34,320 nucleotides of DNA from a virus. Shown piece after piece: positions 2,387 through 33,611 of the stretch. Below the pieces are notes generated by a model, which was given only the letters and a program-made list of their open reading frames with translations, was not told the origin of the DNA and ran no database searches. The number at the start of each line of letters is the position of its first letter. Position 1 is the first letter of the stretch. The position numbers and the translations under genes were made by a program. The DNA lies in IMG/VR virus record IMGVR_UViG_3300034791_000386, positions 1 to 34,320 of that record. One strand, 5' to 3'.

Positions 2387-2827
2387 TTAGATATTTTCTA
2401 AGCGTGACATAAGTCTTTCCGCTCGGTTTGTAACTTGCTTATGCCATCTAGAATCTCTTCCTTCAACGGCTGCTTTTTTCCAATCACCACTTTGCAAAGC
2501 TGCATTGTGATTTTTAAATTGTGTTAATCTTGTTCTGCCCATATTAAACATCATATTAGCAATTACTTGTTTGGCTTCTTCAGGGTAATCATCCCATCCT
2601 TCATGCAATATTTTGCAGTCTTTAAGTACTGACTGTACATCATGATTGAAGCAGGCAATTGTTCTTTCTTCTGATACTGGGGTTCCCACAGCCTGTCCAT
2701 GCTCTGGATCTGATTCGAGGACCAAGTGGCCAATTCCGAAAGTTGCGTAGCCCAAATGATCTTCATAAATTTCATTGACTTTACCCTCATCAATTGTTAG
2801 TGTTTCTCTTAATTGTTCAATATTCAT
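2387..2827 (-). CDS. T4-type lysozyme (endolysin, glycoside hydrolase 24)
   Basis: The 146-residue enzyme is close in length to T4 lysozyme (164). It hydrolyses the MurNAc-GlcNAc bond of peptidoglycan at lysis. The catalytic triad of T4 gpe (E11, D20, T26) is visible as Glu14 (IDEG), Asp23 (IYEDHLG) and Thr29 (YATFGIGH). The second domain keeps MMFNMG, FKNHNAALQ, GDWKKAA, DSRW and NRAERL, all family signatures. There is no signal peptide, so release depends on a holin; two candidates lie just downstream. The ATG has an AAGGA site upstream. Confidence 0.95.
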   Translation of the reverse strand: MNIEQLRETLTIDEGKVNEIYEDHLGYATFGIGHLVLESDPEHGQAVGTPVSEERTIACFNHDVQSVLKDCKILHEGWDDYPEEAKQVIANMMFNMGRTRLTQFKNHNAALQSGDWKKAAVEGRDSRWHKQVTNRAERLMSRLENI

Positions 2828-2837
2828 ATTCTTTTCC

Positions 2838-3590
2838 TTATTGGCTCATATTCATAATTCTATCAATTGGAATAGTATTCCAACTCGTTGTACTTTTCCA
2901 ATTACTTAAAGTATGTTGACCATCAAATGTAGCTTCCCAAAATACTAATTCATCATTTGTATCTGAGGCTGTAAACTGTGTTAAATCTTTTAAATCACCA
3001 TCAAATAATGTTCCGTTAATTTGGACTGCGCTCTGATCTACTTGTCTTTGTGGTTGCATACCTGGCATTATTTCTTCCATTGGACATAGCCAAAAGAACT
3101 CTAATAAATCTGTATCATCAATTTCAGCATATCTATCTTCAGCTGAAATTTCCGTGTTATTACTTAAATCGTATGTTCCATATTGCATTTTTAATTTATT
3201 TGGATATGTTTTGTCTTCTAAGTTCTGTGATTTTAAATTAGTATACATACCTAAAATATCTTCCATATATACATTTGATCCAAAATTCTCATGTAAGTAT
3301 ATATCAGCATTCTGTAACGTTGCAGTAGTTACATCTTCTTCAATAATAGTTACTTTTACTTCATCTTTAAACAAAGTCTTAAGCCAAGTAATAACTCTTT
3401 TATTATTTTCATATGCATATACATGTGTCGCACCGTACTTAACACATAGCCATGTTATAATCCCGGAACCAGCACCTAGTTCAACTACTGTTTTACCTGA
3501 AATATTTGCTTTAATAAAGTCTAAATAAGCTTCAGTTCTTTCTTTATCGATAGCATAATCAAATACTCTATTTACTATTTGGTTTTTCAT
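2838..3590 (-). CDS. SAM-dependent methyltransferase resembling protein arginine methyltransferases
   Basis: The protein has 250 residues. SAM motif I is VELGAGSG (residues 36-43) and the acidic residue after strand beta2 is Glu61 (YAYENN). Beyond this Rossmann core it shows features of the PRMT family: ENFGSNVYME (101-110) has two glutamates with the same spacing as the PRMT double-E loop, YPNKLKMQYGTY resembles the start of the PRMT beta barrel, and SNWKSTTSW near the C-terminus sits where PRMTs have the THW loop. The THW His is Asn here. The substrate is unknown; a virion or host protein is possible. It overlaps the upstream gene by ATGA. Methyltransferase is well supported; the PRMT link is my reading of motif spacing and would need a structure-based comparison. 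Confidence 0.8.
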   Translation of the reverse strand: MKNQIVNRVFDYAIDKERTEAYLDFIKANISGKTVVELGAGSGIITWLCVKYGATHVYAYENNKRVITWLKTLFKDEVKVTIIEEDVTTATLQNADIYLHENFGSNVYMEDILGMYTNLKSQNLEDKTYPNKLKMQYGTYDLSNNTEISAEDRYAEIDDTDLLEFFWLCPMEEIMPGMQPQRQVDQSAVQINGTLFDGDLKDLTQFTASDTNDELVFWEATFDGQHTLSNWKSTTSWNTIPIDRIMNMSQ

Positions 3591-3793
3591 ACTGTTTCAT
3601 TCCATGGTAAGTTTTCTTCAACCCATTCATTAACTTTATATTGAGTTGCGTCTTCATCAATGAATCTATTGTTTTCTGAATCTAATACTGCATGTATTTG
3701 AGCAAATCCATCATGCCAAACAAACTCAGCCCATTTTAATGTACCGGTTGGATTATCCCAATCTTCTACTATTGTATATGCTATATTTGACAT
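3587..3793 (-). CDS. Small acidic protein of unknown function
   Basis: I use the ATG at 3793 (68 residues) rather than one 15 bases upstream, because it overlaps the fibre gene stop as TAATG, the coupling used throughout this genome. The protein is acidic and rich in Trp (EDWDNPTGTLKWAEFVWHDGF ends are typical), with no membrane segment. The short phrase AEFVWH also occurs in the cupin-like protein at 19783-20079, but the rest does not align. Its position between the fibre-like gene and the methyltransferase suggests a late function. No family recognised. Confidence 0.65.
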   Translation of the reverse strand: MSNIAYTIVEDWDNPTGTLKWAEFVWHDGFAQIHAVLDSENNRFIDEDATQYKVNEWVEENLPWNETV

Positions 3794-4563
3794 TATGATA
3801 CCGTCCATGTTGATCGATCAGTTGTTGTTGTATTTGCGCTACCAGTGCCCGATCCTCCTGGGAATAAGTCACTGTCATGAGTAGCAGTAAATGTCTGGCC
3901 GCTCCCGGTAAGATAAGGGCCGACAGCGCTGAAATTAACTTCGTTCCACAACCAAATTCTGGTTGTGTTAGTTGAAGAATAATAGTAACTAGCATCAGCT
4001 CTTGGTAGTGTTAGTGTTGTCATACCACTTCTTGTAGCCACTAAATTTGTATATCCAGCATTACTGTTACTTCCTGTATCCTCTACAATCATCATTACCA
4101 CAGAATACAACTGAGTAGGTCCATATGTCTGATGAGTTATTGATCTTAATGTACCCATTGCGCCGCTCGAAGTGCCCCAGGTAGTTAGATCAGGACTGCC
4201 TATAATACTACCTTGAGCTGAATCTGTTTTAACAGCGCTACTTATATTATTATTGTAAGCGCCAATAGTACTATCGTAAGTGTTGCCATATGATTGTCCA
4301 AACCCATGAAGAATAGCTTCATAGGTATAACCTCTAGGACCAGATACCATCTGATACTTTGCTGCCGGTTGTATTACAACTGAACTTATCCCGTGACTAT
4401 ACCCACTAAATTCTGACATAGCATCAGGACTTGAGAATCCGGCCAGAGCAGATGCAGCTCTAAGTTGATAATGAGCTTCACCCGCGGTAGCCCACGGTAA
4501 ATTTACTTCGTTAGCGATCGCAGATAGATGTATGTCACCTTGCGCTGTTGTATTAATTGCCAT
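3793..4563 (-). CDS. Tail-fibre/adhesin-like virion protein
   Basis: The 256-residue protein begins MAINTTAQGDIHLSAIANEV and contains AMSEFSGYSHG (about residues 48-58), an arrangement often seen at the start of small tail-fibre or collar adhesins of marine T4-like phages (a 'LSxIAxE ... FxGYS' module). The rest is rich in Gly, Ser, Thr, Asn and Tyr with short beta repeats and no charged helices, as expected of an extended surface protein. The end is Gly/Ser/Thr-rich. It lies second in the unit behind the late promoter at 4847. A host-binding role is inferred; composition and the N-terminal module support a virion surface protein. Confidence 0.7.
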   Translation of the reverse strand: MAINTTAQGDIHLSAIANEVNLPWATAGEAHYQLRAASALAGFSSPDAMSEFSGYSHGISSVVIQPAAKYQMVSGPRGYTYEAILHGFGQSYGNTYDSTIGAYNNNISSAVKTDSAQGSIIGSPDLTTWGTSSGAMGTLRSITHQTYGPTQLYSVVMMIVEDTGSNSNAGYTNLVATRSGMTTLTLPRADASYYYSSTNTTRIWLWNEVNFSAVGPYLTGSGQTFTATHDSDLFPGGSGTGSANTTTTDRSTWTVS

Positions 4564-4829
4564 TACTTAATAATCTCCGTAATTAAATTTTCAAACTGTT
4601 CTATCTTAGAAACTCTATTTGGCCAAAGAATATATTCTTTTTCGGGATTTTTCTTTAGATTTGATAGTAAAGGAAGAATTGCATTATATAGCTTATTCAG
4701 CTTATCCTCTAATTCACTTGCATTAGCAGATGCTGAGGTAGCTTCAGATTTTACAGACTGTACTGCTTCAAGCTCGTTTTCGTCAACTGCAGTAAATCCA
4801 AAATCGAAATTTAATAAATCATTACTCAT
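4563..4829 (-). CDS. Conserved small coiled-coil protein, first gene after a late promoter
   Basis: The protein has 88 residues: an acidic N-terminus (LLNFDFGFTAVDENELEA), a predicted coiled coil (about residues 22-60, ASELEDKLNKLYNAILPLL) and a C-terminal KNPEKEYILWPNRVSKIEQF segment. I recall similar small proteins in marine T4-like phages but no assigned function. A TATAAATA late promoter core lies 18 bases upstream of the ATG and a GGAG ribosome site is present. Its end overlaps the fibre gene start. A structural or assembly role is likely from the promoter class. Confidence 0.75.
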   Translation of the reverse strand: MSNDLLNFDFGFTAVDENELEAVQSVKSEATSASANASELEDKLNKLYNAILPLLSNLKKNPEKEYILWPNRVSKIEQFENLITEIIK

Positions 4830-4846
4830 TTTATCTCCTTTACTGT

Positions 4847-4854
4847 TATTTATA
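4847..4854 (-). promoter_or_regulatory. T4-type late promoter core (TATAAATA)
   Basis: The minus strand reads TATAAATA in the short gap between the SET gene and the 88-residue coiled-coil gene. This is the exact T4 late promoter consensus, read by the phage sigma gp55 with gp33 and the sliding clamp. There is no -35 element, as expected for this class. It should drive the fibre, methyltransferase, lysis and curli genes. Confidence 0.7.
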
Positions 4855-4859
4855 CAAGT

Positions 4860-4890
4860 AAAAAAGTCAAAATGCTGATTTATGGCATTG
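4860..4890 (-). terminator. Weak terminator-like hairpin after the SET gene
   Basis: On the minus strand AATGC pairs with GCATT around a nine-base loop that holds the SET stop codon, and a T6 run follows five bases later. The five-pair stem is weak, so this may only be a pause site. It lies between the early/middle genes and the late promoter at 4847. Confidence 0.3.
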
Positions 4891-5221
4891 GTTGATATTC
4901 AGACATGCTATACTTTAATAGGATTTCATCACCCATCATAATACGAGTCTTAGTAAAGAGGTTTGCTTCTTGGCCATGCATTGTAAAGCTTGATTGACCA
5001 GTTTTTATTACAGTAATACAATTAGGGTTTTCAGAATGATTGATAAAACCACCTAATGGAGTTCTTATCCATTCGTCTTTTACAAATATTCGACAAAGAC
5101 CTAAGTTAATACCAGCATCTATATCTTCTACTGCAAATATACCTAGACCATGAGTGTTACTATTCTTGATAGTAAGTGATTTTGGTAATGGAGTATAGGT
5201 ATTTTCGAAACTAATCGTCAT
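4880..5221 (-). CDS. SET-domain protein (putative protein lysine methyltransferase)
   Basis: The ATG at 5221 (113 residues) is preferred because AAAGGG lies eight bases upstream; a GTG nine bases earlier has no room for that site. The product is almost only a SET domain: GLGIFA (25-30) is the first SAM-binding motif, NHSENPNC (61-68) is the NHS-x-x-PN-C knot signature, and GDEILLKYS (97-105) is the final motif with the active-site Tyr104. SET enzymes methylate lysine. No zinc pre-SET or post-SET region is present, as in minimal viral and bacterial SET proteins. The substrate is unknown. It overlaps a 37-codon gene upstream by 11 bases. Confidence 0.85.
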   Translation of the reverse strand: MTISFENTYTPLPKSLTIKNSNTHGLGIFAVEDIDAGINLGLCRIFVKDEWIRTPLGGFINHSENPNCITVIKTGQSSFTMHGQEANLFTKTRIMMGDEILLKYSMSEYQPMP

Positions 5222-5324
5222 CTTTTTCACCCTTTATTCGTTTTAGTATTTCTACTAAATCTTCAATTGTTTCTACATCCGTTTGATTTTCTGTGTCTAT
5301 TTCGACATTTATAGTTATTTTCAT
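5211..5324 (-). CDS. Mini-protein, 37 residues, unknown function
   Basis: A short ORF fills the gap between IscA and SET: MKITINVEIDTENQTDVETI, then an acidic/Leu-rich helix ending in KGEKDDD. The ATG lies two bases after the IscA stop, which fits translational reinitiation; no clear ribosome site is seen. Its end overlaps the SET start by 11 bases and contains that gene's ribosome site. The predicted form is a beta strand then an amphipathic helix. Tight coupling supports a real gene but its size limits certainty. Confidence 0.55.
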   Translation of the reverse strand: MKITINVEIDTENQTDVETIEDLVEILKRIKGEKDDD

Positions 5325-5326
5325 AT

Positions 5327-5653
5327 TTATTTATTTACATAAAAGCTTTCGCCGCAACCGCATTCTCCAGTTACATTTGGATTCACAAATTGGAATCCTT
5401 CGTTAAGGCCTTCAAAAACATATTCAAGTCTTGTGCCTGCAAGAAAAGCCATACTGTCATCATCTACTACGAGTTTAATATCTTCTGATTGAACAATGAT
5501 ATCATGGGTTTTTATTAGATAACAGTACTCCATATTATATGAGTATCCACTACAACCTGAACTTCTGACTTCTATTCTAACACCAACACAATCAGTTCGG
5601 CCGGCCAATCTTTCTCGTAATATGTCTATTGCATGCGAAGTAATACTAATCAT
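5327..5653 (-). CDS. IscA/HesB-type iron-sulfur cluster carrier
   Basis: The ATG at 5653 overlaps the previous stop as ATGA, giving 108 residues, the normal size for A-type carriers. The three cluster-binding cysteines are present: Cys34 in SSGCSGYSY, and Cys98 and Cys100 in the C-terminal ECGCGESF. These proteins accept and deliver Fe-S clusters to target enzymes. Marine T4-like phages often carry such a gene, perhaps to maintain host Fe-S proteins during infection. A phage Fe-S client is not evident in the window. Family call is firm. Confidence 0.92.
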   Translation of the reverse strand: MISITSHAIDILRERLAGRTDCVGVRIEVRSSGCSGYSYNMEYCYLIKTHDIIVQSEDIKLVVDDDSMAFLAGTRLEYVFEGLNEGFQFVNPNVTGECGCGESFYVNK

Positions 5654-5826
5654 CCAAATAGACCCCAACCATGATTAGCAATTGCATTAAGTATAATTGC
5701 TATACAAGTCGCCATGTGAGTAAACCACCATACCGTTCTAATTCCTGCGACTGTATTTGCTTGTTTATCAGTCTCGCCGACCTTTTCGCCTAGACTCTTA
5801 GCCCAGATTCTCCACCATTTCTTCAT
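5650..5826 (-). CDS. Mini-membrane protein, paralogue of the next gene upstream
   Basis: I use the ATG at 5826 (58 residues) because AGGA lies eight bases upstream. The protein has an amphipathic Trp/Lys-rich start (MKKWWRIWAKSLGEKVGE), an acidic linker, then AGIRTVWWFTHMATCIAIIL, a single membrane helix. The pattern W-x-I-W-x-x-x-L-G ... I-R-T ... membrane helix is shared with the product of 5823-5996, so the two are tandem paralogues. Function unknown. It overlaps IscA by four bases. Confidence 0.75.
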   Translation of the reverse strand: MKKWWRIWAKSLGEKVGETDKQANTVAGIRTVWWFTHMATCIAIILNAIANHGWGLFG

Positions 5827-6811: not shown

Positions 6812-7495
6812 TTATCTTCCAAATAGTTTTCTTCGTTTATATTCCGCAATAGTTTCTAATAACTTCTTGCTCCAGTTATCACGATGTTCAACAAAAACTT
6901 GAGGGCCTTGATCACCTGCAATTAATGTAACCAATTGTGTTATTGGCATACCTGTTCTTTCTTCCCACATAATAGAATATGCAGTTTCTTGTACGAAATA
7001 TCCTTCGCACCATTCTTTCTTCTTTGGCTTTGCTGAGGTCTTATAATCTATAATAGAATTTTTACCATTCCATACACCTACACAATCTACTCTTCCAGCA
7101 ACTCCTAAATGAGTAGAATATAGTGGAGCTTCTTGAGCATAGACTTTAGAAAGGTTAGCATCAAGAATTTCTTTTACTTCCATAAAATTAGATTTTACTA
7201 TAAGGTTAGCATCTTTGTAGTAATCTTCTTCGTTATCAACATATCTTTCTAAGACCGCGTGGACTGATGTTCCACGAGTTGAAGCTCTACGAGAAATACG
7301 ATTAGCTTCAACTTCACCAACGCGTTGTCTCCAAGCTCTAATATGATCTTCACTTAATATAGAAAGTACTGTTGTAATAGAAGGGTAGTTAACACCATCA
7401 GGAGCGGCATATGTTCTGCCACTTGAAAGTGTTGTAGCAACCATATCTTTGTAGCCCATATCAATTGGTTCATGTTTAAAGTTTCCCATTTTCAT
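6812..7495 (-). CDS. PD-(D/E)XK exonuclease, RecB-like
   Basis: The 227-residue protein shows a RecB/Cas4-like nuclease core: RGTSVHAVLERY (His79 and Glu83), GVAGRVDCVGVW (Asp137) and SIIDYKTS (Asp150, Lys152), followed by a Gln-containing helix (QETAYSIMWEERTG). This matches the metal-binding D...(D/E)XK active site. Such enzymes in marine T4-like phages are thought to degrade or process DNA ends. It follows phoH with a 20-base overlap and has an AAGGA site before ATG 7495. No helicase domain is fused. Role in recombination or host DNA breakdown is inferred. Confidence 0.8.
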   Translation of the reverse strand: MKMGNFKHEPIDMGYKDMVATTLSSGRTYAAPDGVNYPSITTVLSILSEDHIRAWRQRVGEVEANRISRRASTRGTSVHAVLERYVDNEEDYYKDANLIVKSNFMEVKEILDANLSKVYAQEAPLYSTHLGVAGRVDCVGVWNGKNSIIDYKTSAKPKKKEWCEGYFVQETAYSIMWEERTGMPITQLVTLIAGDQGPQVFVEHRDNWSKKLLETIAEYKRRKLFGR

Positions 7496-8159
7496 ATAAT
7501 TCCTTTGTCATAATAAAATCTCTTACAAAACCACTTCGAACAATGTCTTCCCATTTAAATTCAATATGATCAAAGGAGTTCATGTGTTTAATAATTTCAA
7601 TAAAATCTTTAATGCCGTCTTTATCACCAGCTCGAGTAAAGTCTGATTGGTAGTAATCACCAGACATAATAAATCTACAATCTTCACCAAGTCTTGTTAT
7701 AACAGAGCAGAGTTCATGATAGTTACAATTTTGTGATTCGTCAACTATAACAACTGCATTCTTAATAGTTAATCCTCTAATAAAAGAAGTAGTAAGAAAT
7801 TCAATTTGCTTTAGCTGAACCATCTTAGTCCAACCATCATAATCTTGAAACAGATCATTTACAATAGCTTTATAAGGCGCAGTGTAAGCATCTTCCTTTT
7901 CTTCTTGAGTTCCTGGTAAAAAACCCATGTCTCTGGTAGGAACTGCAGAACGCACAATAATAACTTTTTCATATTCTTTCTTTAATACAGCTTCTAAAGC
8001 TAAATACAAAGATATAAAGGTTTTACCTGTACCTGCTGAACCATCTAAACATAAATGGCTTCCACTAGCAAAAGCATCAAATGCTAGTTTTTGGTTTTGT
8101 GTTAAAGGATCTAATTTAGCTAGATGTTCTAGCTTTAAACGTGTTGGTTTCTTATTCAT
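7476..8159 (-). CDS. phoH: PhoH-like P-loop ATPase
   Basis: The 227-residue protein is a PhoH-type ATPase: LTQNQKLAFDAF, Walker A GSAGTGKT (40-47), sensor-like VRSAVPTRDMGFLPG, Walker B VVIVDESQN (Asp140, Glu141) and FIMSGDYYQSD. Bacterial PhoH2 proteins are RNA helicases/RNases, and PhoH is common in marine phages, but the phage role is unsettled. Here it lies directly upstream of an exonuclease and downstream of an FmdB-like mini-gene, in the unit driven by the promoter at 8962-8990. No KH or PIN domain is attached. Confidence 0.92.
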   Translation of the reverse strand: MNKKPTRLKLEHLAKLDPLTQNQKLAFDAFASGSHLCLDGSAGTGKTFISLYLALEAVLKKEYEKVIIVRSAVPTRDMGFLPGTQEEKEDAYTAPYKAIVNDLFQDYDGWTKMVQLKQIEFLTTSFIRGLTIKNAVVIVDESQNCNYHELCSVITRLGEDCRFIMSGDYYQSDFTRAGDKDGIKDFIEIIKHMNSFDHIEFKWEDIVRSGFVRDFIMTKELYENGKL

Positions 8160-8398
8160 TTTGTATTTATGTTATCCCTAAGTCGTGGTGGTAAACCTTT
8201 TTTGATTCGTTGTTGAACTTCTTTCCATCCGTCTCCAGCCTTACGGCCAACAGATCCAGATACTTCTCCTATAATCATTGGTGAACCAATAACTTGTCGA
8301 ACGTTTTTGTCTTTAACGTATTCTTCCATATCAGAAATAGACATCATTTTAGTGTATACTTCTCCAGAAGTTAAATCTTTAAAATCATATAATGGCAT
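8156..8398 (-). CDS. Small FmdB-like protein without zinc cysteines
   Basis: The 80-residue protein starts MPLYDFKDLTSGEVYTKMMS, a layout like FmdB-type regulators (M-P-x-Y-x-F/D). It lacks the CxxC pairs of those proteins and instead has ISDMEEYVKDKNVRQVIG and a basic end (WKEVQQRIKKGLPPR). Similar small proteins occur in T4-like phages. Ribosome site GGAG is seven bases before the ATG. It overlaps phoH by ATGA and the upstream gene by 14 bases. Function unknown. Confidence 0.75.
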   Translation of the reverse strand: MPLYDFKDLTSGEVYTKMMSISDMEEYVKDKNVRQVIGSPMIIGEVSGSVGRKAGDGWKEVQQRIKKGLPPRLRDNINTK

Positions 8399-15518: not shown

Positions 15519-16280
15519 TTACTTCTCTCCGGCAGATAGCTTTCTAATAGCTTGTACATAGTTAGGCATTCCATGGTCTACTACACCATCAAAGAACTTC
15601 CAACGTTTCCATGATTGACCAATACCCTTAAAGAAATCTCTCCATGATGGACCATCAGCTTTATTACCATCACAATCAAAGTAAATCATTTCTCCATGAT
15701 GTACAAATCCTAACCACGCTGGTGGCATTCTACATACTATATCATTGTTATTCATCATTCGGTAATGATCACATTTAATATTTTTTATAAAGAGTGGACC
15801 TCCAACTCTTGGTGAACCAAAGGTAAAGAGTTCTTGAGGGCAATAACGTGTGGCACTAATAGTAGCCATAGCAGCACCTAGACTATGCCCAGTGAAATAT
15901 ACATCTTTGCTTTTCTTTAATTGACTATTCTTATCTAAGATTTTTACGATTTCCATCCATACATCATCTACTTCTTGTTGGAAACCACCATGGACTTTAC
16001 CACCAGCAACAGCACTATTCTTAATAACTTTTAGATCTGCCAATACGTCATTTAATTTAGCAGGTTCTGTACCTCTAAACGCAAACCAAAGGTTGTGGGG
16101 ATCTTTAGCTACTAATACCTCAGCACCATCAACACTAATTAAATTGGCATTGGTAAAACCTAGGTTTTTACATGCTTCAGCTGCAGGCTTAGGATCCATA
16201 TAGGCAATGGCCGACAACTGAGCTGCTATATCTGCTCTTTCCCATACTGTCATTGTATCTTTTATTCTACTTGTCGCCAT
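15519..16280 (-). CDS. Class 3 lipase/phospholipase-like hydrolase
   Basis: The ATG at 16280 (253 residues) has GGAG seven bases upstream. The alpha/beta hydrolase nucleophile elbow GHSLGAA (131-137, Ser133) is followed by ELFTFGSPRVGG, a class 3 lipase hallmark. A catalytic Asp is likely in NNNDIVCRMPP and His in VVDHGMPNY. FAFRGTE supplies the oxyanion region. No signal peptide is seen, so it acts in the cytoplasm, or after lysis, unless carried by a holin. Its place directly after the spanin pair suggests membrane phospholipid attack during lysis; a virion role is an alternative. Confidence 0.87.
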   Translation of the reverse strand: MATSRIKDTMTVWERADIAAQLSAIAYMDPKPAAEACKNLGFTNANLISVDGAEVLVAKDPHNLWFAFRGTEPAKLNDVLADLKVIKNSAVAGGKVHGGFQQEVDDVWMEIVKILDKNSQLKKSKDVYFTGHSLGAAMATISATRYCPQELFTFGSPRVGGPLFIKNIKCDHYRMMNNNDIVCRMPPAWLGFVHHGEMIYFDCDGNKADGPSWRDFFKGIGQSWKRWKFFDGVVDHGMPNYVQAIRKLSAGEK

Positions 16281-16767
16281 CGGTTTTCTCCACTTTAATT
16301 TCAACTGCTGCAGCATCTTCATCATTTATTGTAACATTCCTATAGTACACTATCACTTCGCCCAGCTGATTTATATATCTTTTAATTTCTTGAGTGTTAT
16401 AAGACATAAGCTCGTAATCCGCAATTGTCATTGCTACGAATACTACATCACCCCCATTCTTTTTCTTGATATCATCTACGAATCTATCAAAATATGTATA
16501 CCCTTCTGGATATAAATCTTCTCTACCCAATTTACAATTGGACTTTTTAGTTTCAGGATCTTTAAGACATCCTTCGATGATTTTAGCATCTGAAACAACA
16601 TACCACTTAGGTTCTTTTAACTTTATCGCTCTTGGTAATACTGGTTGTATTATTTCAATCTGAACAGGCTTACTTATAATCTGGACTTCTCTAGGAGCTT
16701 GTTGAAGTAGACTACAACCACTAATCGTTAAGAGTGCTAATACGAACGCTATCGTTTTGAATCGCAT
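16267..16767 (-). CDS. o-spanin-like outer-membrane lipoprotein (Rz1-like)
   Basis: The ATG at 16767 has a near-perfect ribosome site (AAGGAGGT, five bases). The 166-residue product has a lipoprotein signal ending TISGC (Cys18). The early mature part is Pro/Val-rich (VQIEIIQPVLPRAIKLKEP), as in Rz1 proteins, but the rest is a longer, mixed domain with a Cys pair. It overlaps the i-spanin gene by 47 bases, the usual Rz/Rz1 layout. It is long for an o-spanin; the call relies on lipobox, overlap and neighbour. Confidence 0.72.
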   Translation of the reverse strand: MRFKTIAFVLALLTISGCSLLQQAPREVQIISKPVQIEIIQPVLPRAIKLKEPKWYVVSDAKIIEGCLKDPETKKSNCKLGREDLYPEGYTYFDRFVDDIKKKNGGDVVFVAMTIADYELMSYNTQEIKRYINQLGEVIVYYRNVTINDEDAAAVEIKVEKTDGDK

Positions 16768-20616: not shown

Positions 20617-21056
20617 TACGTCCCCTTTATAGTTCTTACTATTTTGCTTGTTATCATTTTAATAGCAGTCATATAGGCAAAACCTAGTCCGAAAACTGCA
20701 TGAAATGTATGATTCTTTTCTATTTCGGATTTAGGGCCTAGCTTCTTAGTCCAGTTATCTACCCACTCCCCTTTGTATCTTAACACCGCGTGTGATACTT
20801 TCCACTTACTCGGGCCAACTAAACAAATACCAGCTTGATGGGTAATTAACAGCCACCACATTTTAAGGTGAGATTCTCCACATAGTCTATATAGAACAGA
20901 CAATGCATAGTCTTCGCAATCACCAACATACTTACCTTCTGCATCTTCTGAATAGATAATCTTCCAAGCATCTTTCATACCGTACTGCTCTGAATCTAAT
21001 CTATACTTCCATTTAGCATTGAAAGCTTTTACTATCTTCTGGTCTTCTTTATTCAT
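20616..21056 (-). CDS. Transglutaminase-like cysteine protease family protein
   Basis: ATG 21056 (146 residues) is in an ATGA overlap and has AAGGA eight bases upstream. The Cys-His-Asp triad of bacterial transglutaminase-like cysteine proteinases is visible: VGDCEDYAL (Cys47), SHAVLRYKG (His89) and EWVDNW (Asp100). The C-terminal stretch HAVFGLGFAYMTAIKMITSK is hydrophobic and may touch a membrane. It has no leader, unlike its neighbours. Substrate unknown; head maturation or cell-wall action are both possible. Confidence 0.8.
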   Translation of the reverse strand: MNKEDQKIVKAFNAKWKYRLDSEQYGMKDAWKIIYSEDAEGKYVGDCEDYALSVLYRLCGESHLKMWWLLITHQAGICLVGPSKWKVSHAVLRYKGEWVDNWTKKLGPKSEIEKNHTFHAVFGLGFAYMTAIKMITSKIVRTIKGT

Positions 21057-21721
21057 TTTGTCTGTCCTTGTATCCATCTTATAGCAATGGAGTTTTCTGG
21101 AGGTTTTGCCGCCCAGGTTTTTATTCTTTTATAAGCATTTAATGTAGCGCCTTCAATATCAGATCCTTTCGAGTTGTCGACAATAATCATTCGCTGTCTA
21201 AACAATGCTTGGAATTTACCAATATTGTTTTGTACACTTGACCACATTTGTGTTACCATATCATCTGGTAAACTTCTTGGTCTATCATTATTTCTAGTTT
21301 GTGCAGTTTCTAAATCTGTATTAACAAATATCATATGTACAGCATAACCAAGACTTCTTAACATATCAACTTGTTTTTTAATTTTTTCATAATCTTTACC
21401 AGTACCATCAATAACTATACCCATTCTTCCAATTAAAGCTCTAGTCATAATCTTACCAGTTAATGCTTTAGCAGAAGCTCTTACTAACTGACCTTGTGCT
21501 GATGCAATATCGTCTGGATCAGTAGTAAGACCTGCCTTTTTCAAGCCTTTTTCAAAAGCATTATCTGAATTTATTAATCTAAACCCTAATGCTTTCAAAG
21601 CAGTCTGACCTACAACAAATGATTTACCAGAACCTGGGCCACCTGCTAGGAATACTGCTTTAAAAATAGAAGGATCATTAACACCTTCCATTAAATTAAA
21701 ATGTTCTTTAAATGTTGTCAT
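21053..21721 (-). CDS. P-loop kinase (zeta-toxin/polynucleotide-kinase-like) with capsid-targeting-like leader
   Basis: The 222-residue protein begins MTTFKEHFNLMEGVNDPS, a leader with probable cleavage after LME. A P-loop kinase follows: FLAGGPGSGKSFVVG (Walker A 27-34), INSDNAFEKGL (Asp near the substrate site), VIDGTGKDYEKI and a lid arginine region NNDRPRSLPD. This is the fold of zeta toxins, gluconate kinases and T4-type polynucleotide kinases. The substrate cannot be read. It is coupled by ATGA on both sides. If the leader is a true capsid-targeting sequence, this kinase would be delivered into the cell with the genome. Confidence 0.82.
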   Translation of the reverse strand: MTTFKEHFNLMEGVNDPSIFKAVFLAGGPGSGKSFVVGQTALKALGFRLINSDNAFEKGLKKAGLTTDPDDIASAQGQLVRASAKALTGKIMTRALIGRMGIVIDGTGKDYEKIKKQVDMLRSLGYAVHMIFVNTDLETAQTRNNDRPRSLPDDMVTQMWSSVQNNIGKFQALFRQRMIIVDNSKGSDIEGATLNAYKRIKTWAAKPPENSIAIRWIQGQTK

Positions 21722-32419: not shown

Positions 32420-32448
32420 ATTATAACATAAATTCAGTCAATTGTAAA
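32420..32448 (-). promoter_or_regulatory. Sigma70-type promoter, cassette copy 6
   Basis: Minus strand: -35 TTTACA (32448-32443), 17-base spacer ending TTTATGT, -10 TATAAT (32425-32420). It lies over the last codons and stop of the methyltransferase gene. The leader to the bS21 ATG is about 26 bases and contains AGAGGA. Confidence 0.86.
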
Positions 32449-33611
32449 CAGTTTTTTTCATATTCATAGGTTTTTTTCTTATTATCTTGAACCATGAAAT
32501 TTGTATCGACTTTATCTAATCTACCTTCTAGGTACTTTTTAACCATTCGAGCGGGATGCTCGGCAGTTGTCACTGGTACGTTTTGACACATATGATTAAG
32601 AGATCTTTTAGGATTTAAAAGTTGATAATCACTAGGTAGTTTCATTAGTGATAATGATTCTCTTACGGTTAAAAATCTGTCTTCATCAGGATGAGTTAGA
32701 TTAGTTGGCATATGTCCTACAAATGCTCCAATCTTATCTTTAGGAATTTCTATTCCCTTTCTCATAATATTGCCACCGGCTTTAAGCTTATGGTATTGTC
32801 TATCACATTTATTTGCAACAGTGTCATATCCACGTTCTCGCATCCATCTAGCAACTTCTTTGTAATTTGTTCTTTCTTCAATATAATCTTGTAGACCTGT
32901 TGATTTTTTAATCTTAGCTGAGAATTCTGAATGAGTAATCCCGCCTTCAAGTTCTTCTAGAATATACTTATAATATGGTTCATCTGATGGCTTACCTTCT
33001 TTACATAATATATTGCTCATAGGATCATCTTTATTATATTTAACTGCTCGAATATCATCGGCAATATTTGATGGTGCCACTTCAATATATTCAAATAATG
33101 GAACTGAATCTCCTTTCCAAAAGAAGTAAAAAGTACGGTCTCTAACTTGACTTAATCCATGTAATAATGATTTTGTTTTAAATATACTGAATGTATATCC
33201 ATTAGCCTCGGCAATTTTTCGCAGTCTACGTACTACTGGTTCACCCATTTTTGAAGCTAATCTTGGAGCATTCTCACCCCAAAAGACTTTTGGTTGAACT
33301 TCAGATAAAACATACTCTGCTGATTTTACCATCCAATCATTTGCTGGGTTATTACTCGATGCCTGTGGACTTAATGAGCTTAGCCCAGCACATGGACATA
33401 TAGTATTAACAACGTCAACTTGACCATTGTGTTTATCGCCTTGAGATAAATTTAAATAAGGAACTTCATAATTATAATAATTTTGTAAGTGTTCTTCATT
33501 TGCTTGAAAACCATCGAATGTTAAAAAATATTCTGGTCTTGTTTTAAAAATATTTTCCATTGCGATTGTTTCTCCACCAATCAATGGAACGATACTTGCC
33601 CATGTAGTCAT
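32421..33611 (-). CDS. DNA cytosine-5 methyltransferase
   Basis: The 396-residue enzyme carries C5-methyltransferase motifs in order: motif I-like SIVPLIGGE near the start, motif IV CPCAGLS (Cys74 as nucleophile; usual form PCxGFS), motif VI ENAP (113-116; usual ENV), motif VIII QVRDR (155-159), motif IX-like RFLTVRESLSLMKLPSDYQL and motif X NVPVTTAEH. The region between VIII and IX, about 200-295, is the target recognition part. Motif I lacks the usual FAGIGG. No restriction partner is visible, so an orphan enzyme that protects or marks phage DNA is likely. Specificity unknown. Confidence 0.87.
   Translation of the reverse strand: MTTWASIVPLIGGETIAMENIFKTRPEYFLTFDGFQANEEHLQNYYNYEVPYLNLSQGDKHNGQVDVVNTICPCAGLSSLSPQASSNNPANDWMVKSAEYVLSEVQPKVFWGENAPRLASKMGEPVVRRLRKIAEANGYTFSIFKTKSLLHGLSQVRDRTFYFFWKGDSVPLFEYIEVAPSNIADDIRAVKYNKDDPMSNILCKEGKPSDEPYYKYILEELEGGITHSEFSAKIKKSTGLQDYIEERTNYKEVARWMRERGYDTVANKCDRQYHKLKAGGNIMRKGIEIPKDKIGAFVGHMPTNLTHPDEDRFLTVRESLSLMKLPSDYQLLNPKRSLNHMCQNVPVTTAEHPARMVKKYLEGRLDKVDTNFMVQDNKKKTYEYEKNCLQLTEFML

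Follow-up and report, generated by a model that had tools for sequence, protein, structure and literature searches.

The DNA analysed here (hereafter the window) is the complete 34,320-nucleotide (34-kb) virus record IMGVR_UViG_3300034791_000386 of IMG/VR, a fragment of a T4-like phage. Two open reading frames (ORFs), at 2838-3590 (250 residues) and 4880-5221 (113 residues), are present as the initial annotation had described them, 1290 bp apart. The product of the former is our main subject: its sequence and predicted fold are those of a protein arginine methyltransferase (PRMT) like those known from animals and plants, an assignment that we regard as strong on sequence and model evidence. 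We consider it probable that it is a PRMT-family enzyme, made late and acting on virion or assembly proteins, and that the second gene, which encodes a SET-domain protein, is a separate matter. The features of the PRMT-type gene are:

2838..3590, minus strand: coding sequence of the PRMT-type methyltransferase, 250 residues (sequence, profile and model evidence)
3537..3548, minus strand: D15-x-x-R18 of the first PRMT helix, equivalent to D51/R54 in the usual PRMT1 numbering (alignment)
3462..3482, minus strand: motif I, ELGAGSG, for binding of S-adenosylmethionine (SAM) (alignment)
3408..3410, minus strand: E61, the acidic end of post-I, V57-Y-A-Y-E61 (alignment)
3261..3290, minus strand: double-E loop ENFGSNVYME, E101 to E110 (alignment, profile comparison)
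2880..2888, minus strand: counterpart of the THW loop, T235-S236-W237 (THW in L005 and L006)

Motifs, homology and predicted fold of the PRMT-type protein

Read against the published PRMT motif definitions, which include VLD/VGxGxG for motif I (PMC12925635), the SAM motif recognized in the initial annotation is VVELGAGSG at residues 35-43, with invariant glycines; post-I (V/I-x-G/A-x-D/E) is matched by V57-Y-A-Y-E61, and motif II (E/K/V-D-I-I) may correspond to A95-D96-I97-Y98, where the D and an I are retained and the flanks differ. The double-E consensus SExMGxxLxxExM is represented by HENFGSNVYMEDI, in which both glutamates stand at the correct spacing (E101-x8-E110, as initially read), Gly104 is also retained and the pair falls on that of PRMT1 by profile; across the 38 aligned rows E101 never varies, and E110 is kept in at least 90% of them. 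From motif III (LKxxGxxxP), the proline alone is clear (P130, invariant in the family). The THW loop also has a positional counterpart, as proposed, but not in the S229-N230-W231 of SNWKSTTSW where it had been placed: it is T235-S236-W237, six residues later, that pairs with the THW of PRMT1 in the profile alignment. This later site reads TSW in the window and L001-L004, KTHW in L005 and L006, and ISHW in a sister family (SHW in L138-L175), and the SN of the earlier site is conserved as well. By analogy, Ser at the place of the THW histidine appears unusual, yet not disabling in principle, since PRMT5 enzymes naturally carry an FSW loop (PMC11721204). Between relatives, the gene is under purifying selection, with a ratio of nonsynonymous to synonymous substitution rates (dN/dS) of 0.11-0.35.

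Sequence, profile and structure comparisons are all led by PRMTs, in line with the initial proposal. In a phmmer search against solved structures, PRMT7, PRMT6 and PRMT3 come first (E 1e-5) and the leading matches are nearly all PRMTs, and a profile of the seven closest sequences finds PRMTs best in the PDB (E 2e-7), followed by KsgA at 0.005. When the 250-residue phage families were aligned with hhalign to a set of seven bacterial PRMT-like proteins and human PRMT1 (whose 371-residue sequence matches PDB entry 6nt2 throughout), the match extended across 210 columns (probability 99.6, E 2.5e-24), with D15/R18 on the D..R helix, E101/E110 on the double-E loop and T235-S236-W237 on THW in the same register.

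An AlphaFold2 model built from 38 rows, none of them eukaryotic, reaches a predicted local distance difference test score (pLDDT) of 90.1 and a predicted template modelling score (pTM) of 0.89. The 50 best Foldseek matches to it are PRMTs throughout, as are the 50 best entries (50/50) after VIA-align comparison with the top 1000 chains (Z 15.4-17.7, root-mean-square deviation 3.3-3.9, 203-213 residues), although families missing from these 50, such as KsgA and PRMT5, are not thereby excluded. These alignments span model residues 1-250 and thus both the Rossmann and the barrel parts, the latter containing the helices at 150-177. A better match to an rRNA or small-molecule methyltransferase, or the lack of a PRMT barrel, had been named at the outset as what would speak against a PRMT; what we find is PRMTs in every structural row and a barrel that is covered.

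The best structural match is PRMT7 of Trypanosoma brucei (4m38; Z 17.7, 213 residues). With eukaryotic PRMT1, PRMT3, PRMT6 and PRMT7 the phage protein has in common the Rossmann domain, D..R helix, motif I, post-I, double-E loop, the proline at the barrel entrance, the barrel itself and a THW-type loop, whereas it differs from them in its low identity (~20%), its length (250 residues against ~300-340 resolved ones), its shorter barrel, the lack of YFxxY, TSW in place of THW and its location in a late unit of a T4-like phage. The type II enzyme PRMT5, which does not appear in the 50 best structural rows, resembles it in the Ser of its FSW loop (PMC11721204), but the phage protein has neither the TIM-barrel domain nor PLxxN.

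Phage and bacterial relatives

In IMG/VR we found seven near relatives of the PRMT-type protein, the six full-length ones at 64-87% identity; the related contigs are uncultured phages that are likewise T4-like. Further relatives were collected with a search pattern widened by PRMT fragments and then with a mixed alignment, a procedure open to bias, but these relatives were confirmed by tblastn using the window protein alone; the E-values of these scans apply to the candidate stretches and not to the collection as a whole. In tblastn searches of 50,697 phage records with the window protein and with members of the families related to it, no credible homologue was found, and named phage isolates yielded none. 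The viral structure library (BFVD) yielded two clear matches, D6PIP9 and A0A6J5L7A5, which stand in databases without a PRMT name.

Two families emerge from the widened search, the remaining relatives being scattered and long-branched. Members of the sister family (L138-L175; ~250 residues) carry HEWLTSEFWNE and ISHW and give near full-length tblastn matches to the window protein, and one of them, searched separately against the PDB, again finds PRMTs first (E 2e-8). Together with D6PIP9 (248 residues) they are full-length relatives at 27-33% identity, which differ from the window protein in keeping SHW, in an insert after the double-E loop and in sitting between packaging genes where the context was read: in L156 and L172 the gene's two neighbours, both overlapping it, are terS-like and terL, as assigned from sequence and gene order, within a packaging and tail cluster. 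The other family (L099-L128; ~310 residues) has the double-E loop SETIGAHIYNE and lies at or near a UvsW-like helicase gene in L104 and L111. With A0A6J5L7A5 (313 residues, uncultured Caudovirales phage), it is comparable to the window protein in the ML.D..RN helix start, motif I and the SET...E double-E loop, and differs in a longer C-terminal part, where the alignment is unsure. In T4-like marine phages, PRMT-type genes occur in at least three neighbourhoods: the adhesin-lysozyme unit described below, the terS-terL junction and near UvsW. L111 lies on a 289-kb contig with three PRMT-like ORFs (L111 5920-6861, 7436-7861, and L126), one of just 141 residues.

A genome scan with the alignment of close relatives gave no match. 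The scan with a looser alignment returned, among the matches listed, PRMT-like proteins with double-E and THW intact from several bacterial phyla, including Actinomycetota, Myxococcota, Pseudomonadota and Cyanobacteriota (L184-L206). These proteins (e.g., L201, L198 and L186) have the core motif set in common with the phage protein and match it over the 210 profile columns; unlike it, they have a full barrel, several matching Pfam PRMT_C well, and THW in most cases. L186 and L195 carry a SEC-C-type C-terminal tail (CPCGSG...CC). In a tree built on 138 columns, a moderately supported branch (80/78) separates the phage sequences from the bacterial ones, with the exception of the long-branched phage row L131 on the bacterial side, and the 250-residue phage families (window, terS-terL and L098 sequences) form one group (100/100). 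Human PRMT1 nests among the bacterial sequences, a single eukaryotic sequence being too few to conclude from, and the tree does not settle a single origin of all phage PRMT-like families.

The late unit, the SET gene and the surrounding genome

The PRMT-type gene belongs to a conserved unit that includes or adjoins the following:

4847..4854, minus strand: TATAAATA, T4-type late promoter element at the head of the unit (exact, 6/6 loci)
4563..4829, minus strand: conserved 88-residue protein, first gene of the unit (synteny)
3793..4563, minus strand: adhesin- or virion-appendage-like protein, 256 residues, candidate substrate (synteny)
3587..3808, minus strand: conserved 73-residue protein, overlapping the start of the PRMT-type gene (synteny)
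2387..2827, minus strand: lysozyme similar to the T4-type tail lysozyme (library matches)

The octamer TATAAATA, the core of T4 late promoters, occurs exactly, 14-19 nt upstream of the start codon of the same 88-residue gene, at six of six loci. Its count across the whole window is at chance level (7 against 7.2 expected), and its weight lies solely in this conserved position. The order is 88-residue, adhesin-like, 73-residue and PRMT-type gene, followed by the lysozyme in the window, L003, L004 and L006. The adhesin-like protein, for which domain and family library scans gave no family match in its 256-residue window form, has 473-478 residues in L001, L003 and L005, with GQIKFSDFYG-type repeats. 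The PRMT-type protein is probably made late in infection, and the late timing of the unit and its neighbours would favour virion or assembly proteins as substrates, among initially proposed targets that also included RNA polymerase and the ribosome. In L005, a 474-residue ORF (2563-3987), RimK-like (ATP-grasp) by eye, lies upstream of the unit and a 306-residue ORF (7303-8223) between the PRMT-type and SET genes; both are possible further protein-modifying enzymes.

The SET gene has these features:

4880..5221, minus strand: coding sequence of the SET-domain protein, 113 residues, from ATG 5221 (the ORF 4880-5230 opens at GTG 5230)
5132..5149, minus strand: GxG element of SET-N, GLGIFA (alignment)
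5018..5053, minus strand: SET element GGFINHSENPNC (alignment)
4910..4933, minus strand: SET-C, GDEILLKY, with the invariant Tyr (alignment)

The minimal SET domain initially recognized here is borne out by these elements, by Pfam SET (30.9 bits, cut-off 22.4) and by a family profile that finds KMT2 SET domains (E 8e-11) and vSET (6e-10) in the PDB. The GxG, NHxxxPN and E....Y motifs are invariant or nearly so in 23 sequences, and dN/dS is 0.18-0.24. The protein resembles vSET of PBCV-1 (1n3j, 119 residues) and phrog_28741 as a minimal SET without post-SET and with NHS.NPNC and E....Y; it differs from vSET in being shorter and in a host that is presumably a bacterium without histones. A phage SET gene had been thought unusual, a view that finds no support: one scan gave at least 105 relatives, and several isolates, among them two cyanophages (P-RSM6, P-SSM7) and a pelagiphage (Kolga), have such a gene, annotated as hypothetical; in P-RSM6 the genes next to it are a gp25-like one and one for the baseplate wedge. 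Phage SET genes thus appear common in the sea, with lysine methylation as their predicted activity. We found no paper on them in the openly accessible literature, which omits most subscription journals.

Nor do the counts support the two methyltransferase-like genes as a pair. SET is present in 3/7 PRMT sister contigs (L005, L006 and L007) and 1/42 distant ones, and PRMT in 1/33 SET contigs, all lower bounds, many contigs being fragments; the genes look like independent accessories. The one distant contig with both is that of L129 (228 kb), whose SET match (164725-165027) has one TAA counted inside the matched stretch.

The minus strand of the window also encodes, as read by eye from the ORF list, UvsX, a DnaB-type helicase, NrdA/NrdB, a PhoH-like protein and a tail lysozyme; its UvsX is 72% identical to that of Phage C48C1 (Kyanoviridae), and the virus is a T4-like marine virus of bacteria. 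Other minus-strand genes are adjacent CsgG (E 9e-49) and CsgF (E 2e-8) homologues at 118-1574, parts of the curli secretion channel that are also kept in sister contigs; an Fe-S cluster biosynthesis (IscA/HesB-like) protein at 5327-5668 (phrog_17776), whose position relative to the PRMT-type gene differs in L005 and L007; a class 3 lipase at 15519-16325 (Pfam Lipase_3, E 3e-20); a Zeta-toxin/AAA_33-like P-loop kinase at 21053-21721; and a homologue of C5-cytosine DNA methylase at 32421-33611.

Candidate activity, alternatives and implications

We propose that the PRMT-type protein is a compact class I SAM-dependent methyltransferase of the PRMT family, made up of a Rossmann domain and, after it, a PRMT-type barrel that is shortened and has a helical insert. 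In this picture the guanidinium group of a protein arginine would be gripped by Glu101 and Glu110, in a pocket lined by the T235-S236-W237 loop, and the products would be mono- or dimethyl-arginine; the mono, asymmetric and symmetric PRMT types are not distinguishable from the present evidence. Arginine methylation would be its likely activity. The sequence and fold, the conserved motifs, the purifying selection, the late promoter element and the synteny are computed results, whereas catalytic activity, arginine as the target and substrates in the virion are what we infer. Expression would be late, from the unit headed by TATAAATA, and proteins of the virion or of its assembly would be the most likely substrates, the adhesin-like neighbour among them. 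The SET protein would be a small protein-lysine methyltransferase in its own right, from a family found in marine phages.

Several observations weigh against this proposal. YFxxY (type I) and PLxxN (type II) are absent, the N-terminus, MKNQIVNRVFDYAID, is too short, and Ser replaces the THW histidine in the window protein and L001-L004. The AlphaFold2 model from the seven close sequences is poor (pLDDT 53), the confidence of the larger model rests on relatives many of which were found after the search pattern had been widened with PRMT fragments, and, PRMT structures having been part of AlphaFold2 training, the agreement in fold cannot count as fully separate evidence from the sequence. Pfam PRMT_C (PF22528) and PRMT5 (PF05185), which are detection models and not a biochemical feature, give no match up to E 1. 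The sole Pfam model past its cut-off is RrnaAD (30.9 bits, cut-off 24; residues 28-103), and with weak NCBIfam matches to Erm and KsgA it points to an rRNA adenine dimethylase (KsgA/Erm-like) or another nucleic-acid methyltransferase. This we find scarcely credible: the NCBIfam scores are far below their cut-offs (KsgA, 29.8 bits where 171 are needed; Erm, 35 where 212 are), PRMTs outscore these enzymes in sequence and structure searches, and HENFG stands where the N[LI]PY-type motif IV expected of KsgA/Erm enzymes would be. We rejected a KsgA, Erm or PrmA reading, as the matches are confined to the SAM-binding part (28-103); a sequence-family scan by itself would have misfiled the protein, because Pfam and NCBIfam detect merely the generic SAM-binding domain.

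That the PRMT fold serves a changed substrate, be it another side chain, a small guanidine compound or nucleic acid, is unlikely; in its favour are the shortened barrel, the missing YFxxY and PLxxN, the exchange of the THW histidine, the divergence from every cellular PRMT (~20% identity) and the position of phage and bacterial sequences on opposite sides of the branch in the tree; against it, both arginine-clamp glutamates are retained across the 250-residue families, and THW or SHW in most 250-residue relatives. TSW in the window and L001-L004 could also mark a catalytically weak or inactive partner that acts by binding, as PRMT prozymes do exist, an example being TbPRMT3, which is without double-E and THW (PMC12925635). 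Here, however, motif I, post-I, D..R and both glutamates are intact, Ser is natural in the FSW of PRMT5-type enzymes (PMC11721204) and no second relative of the gene was found within the window record, so that we hold a prozyme to be quite improbable. It is very improbable that the PRMT and SET proteins act jointly as a two-enzyme protein-modification module: the genes lie 1.3 kb apart in the window, are close together in L006 and are both present in L005 and L007, but their order varies, L005 and L007 having SET on the other side of the PRMT-type gene, before the lysozyme. The module was rejected on the co-occurrence counts, no SET being found in 4/7 sister contigs in a set with many fragments.

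A PRMT-family enzyme, the reading we prefer, would bear on a recent study of Cellulophaga phages, in which phage proteins were found methylated both in infected cells and in virions and, as no known methyltransferase is encoded by these phages, the modification was credited to the host's enzymes (Stai et al., 2026; PMC13288928). For such methylation, the PRMT-type phage protein represents a candidate class of enzyme that phages themselves would supply. We found no paper on a phage-encoded PRMT in the openly accessible literature, which omits most subscription journals. The search also reveals PRMT-like genes in the genomes of several bacterial phyla. Tentatively, we suggest that T4-like marine phages encode late protein arginine methyltransferases in at least three neighbourhoods, which would mark virion or packaging proteins with methyl-arginine and might be the first such phage-encoded system. 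If this is true, phages bring their own enzyme for arginine methylation, a modification regarded mainly as eukaryotic, and the window phage, together with many uncultured relatives, may tag proteins in a way not before credited to phages.

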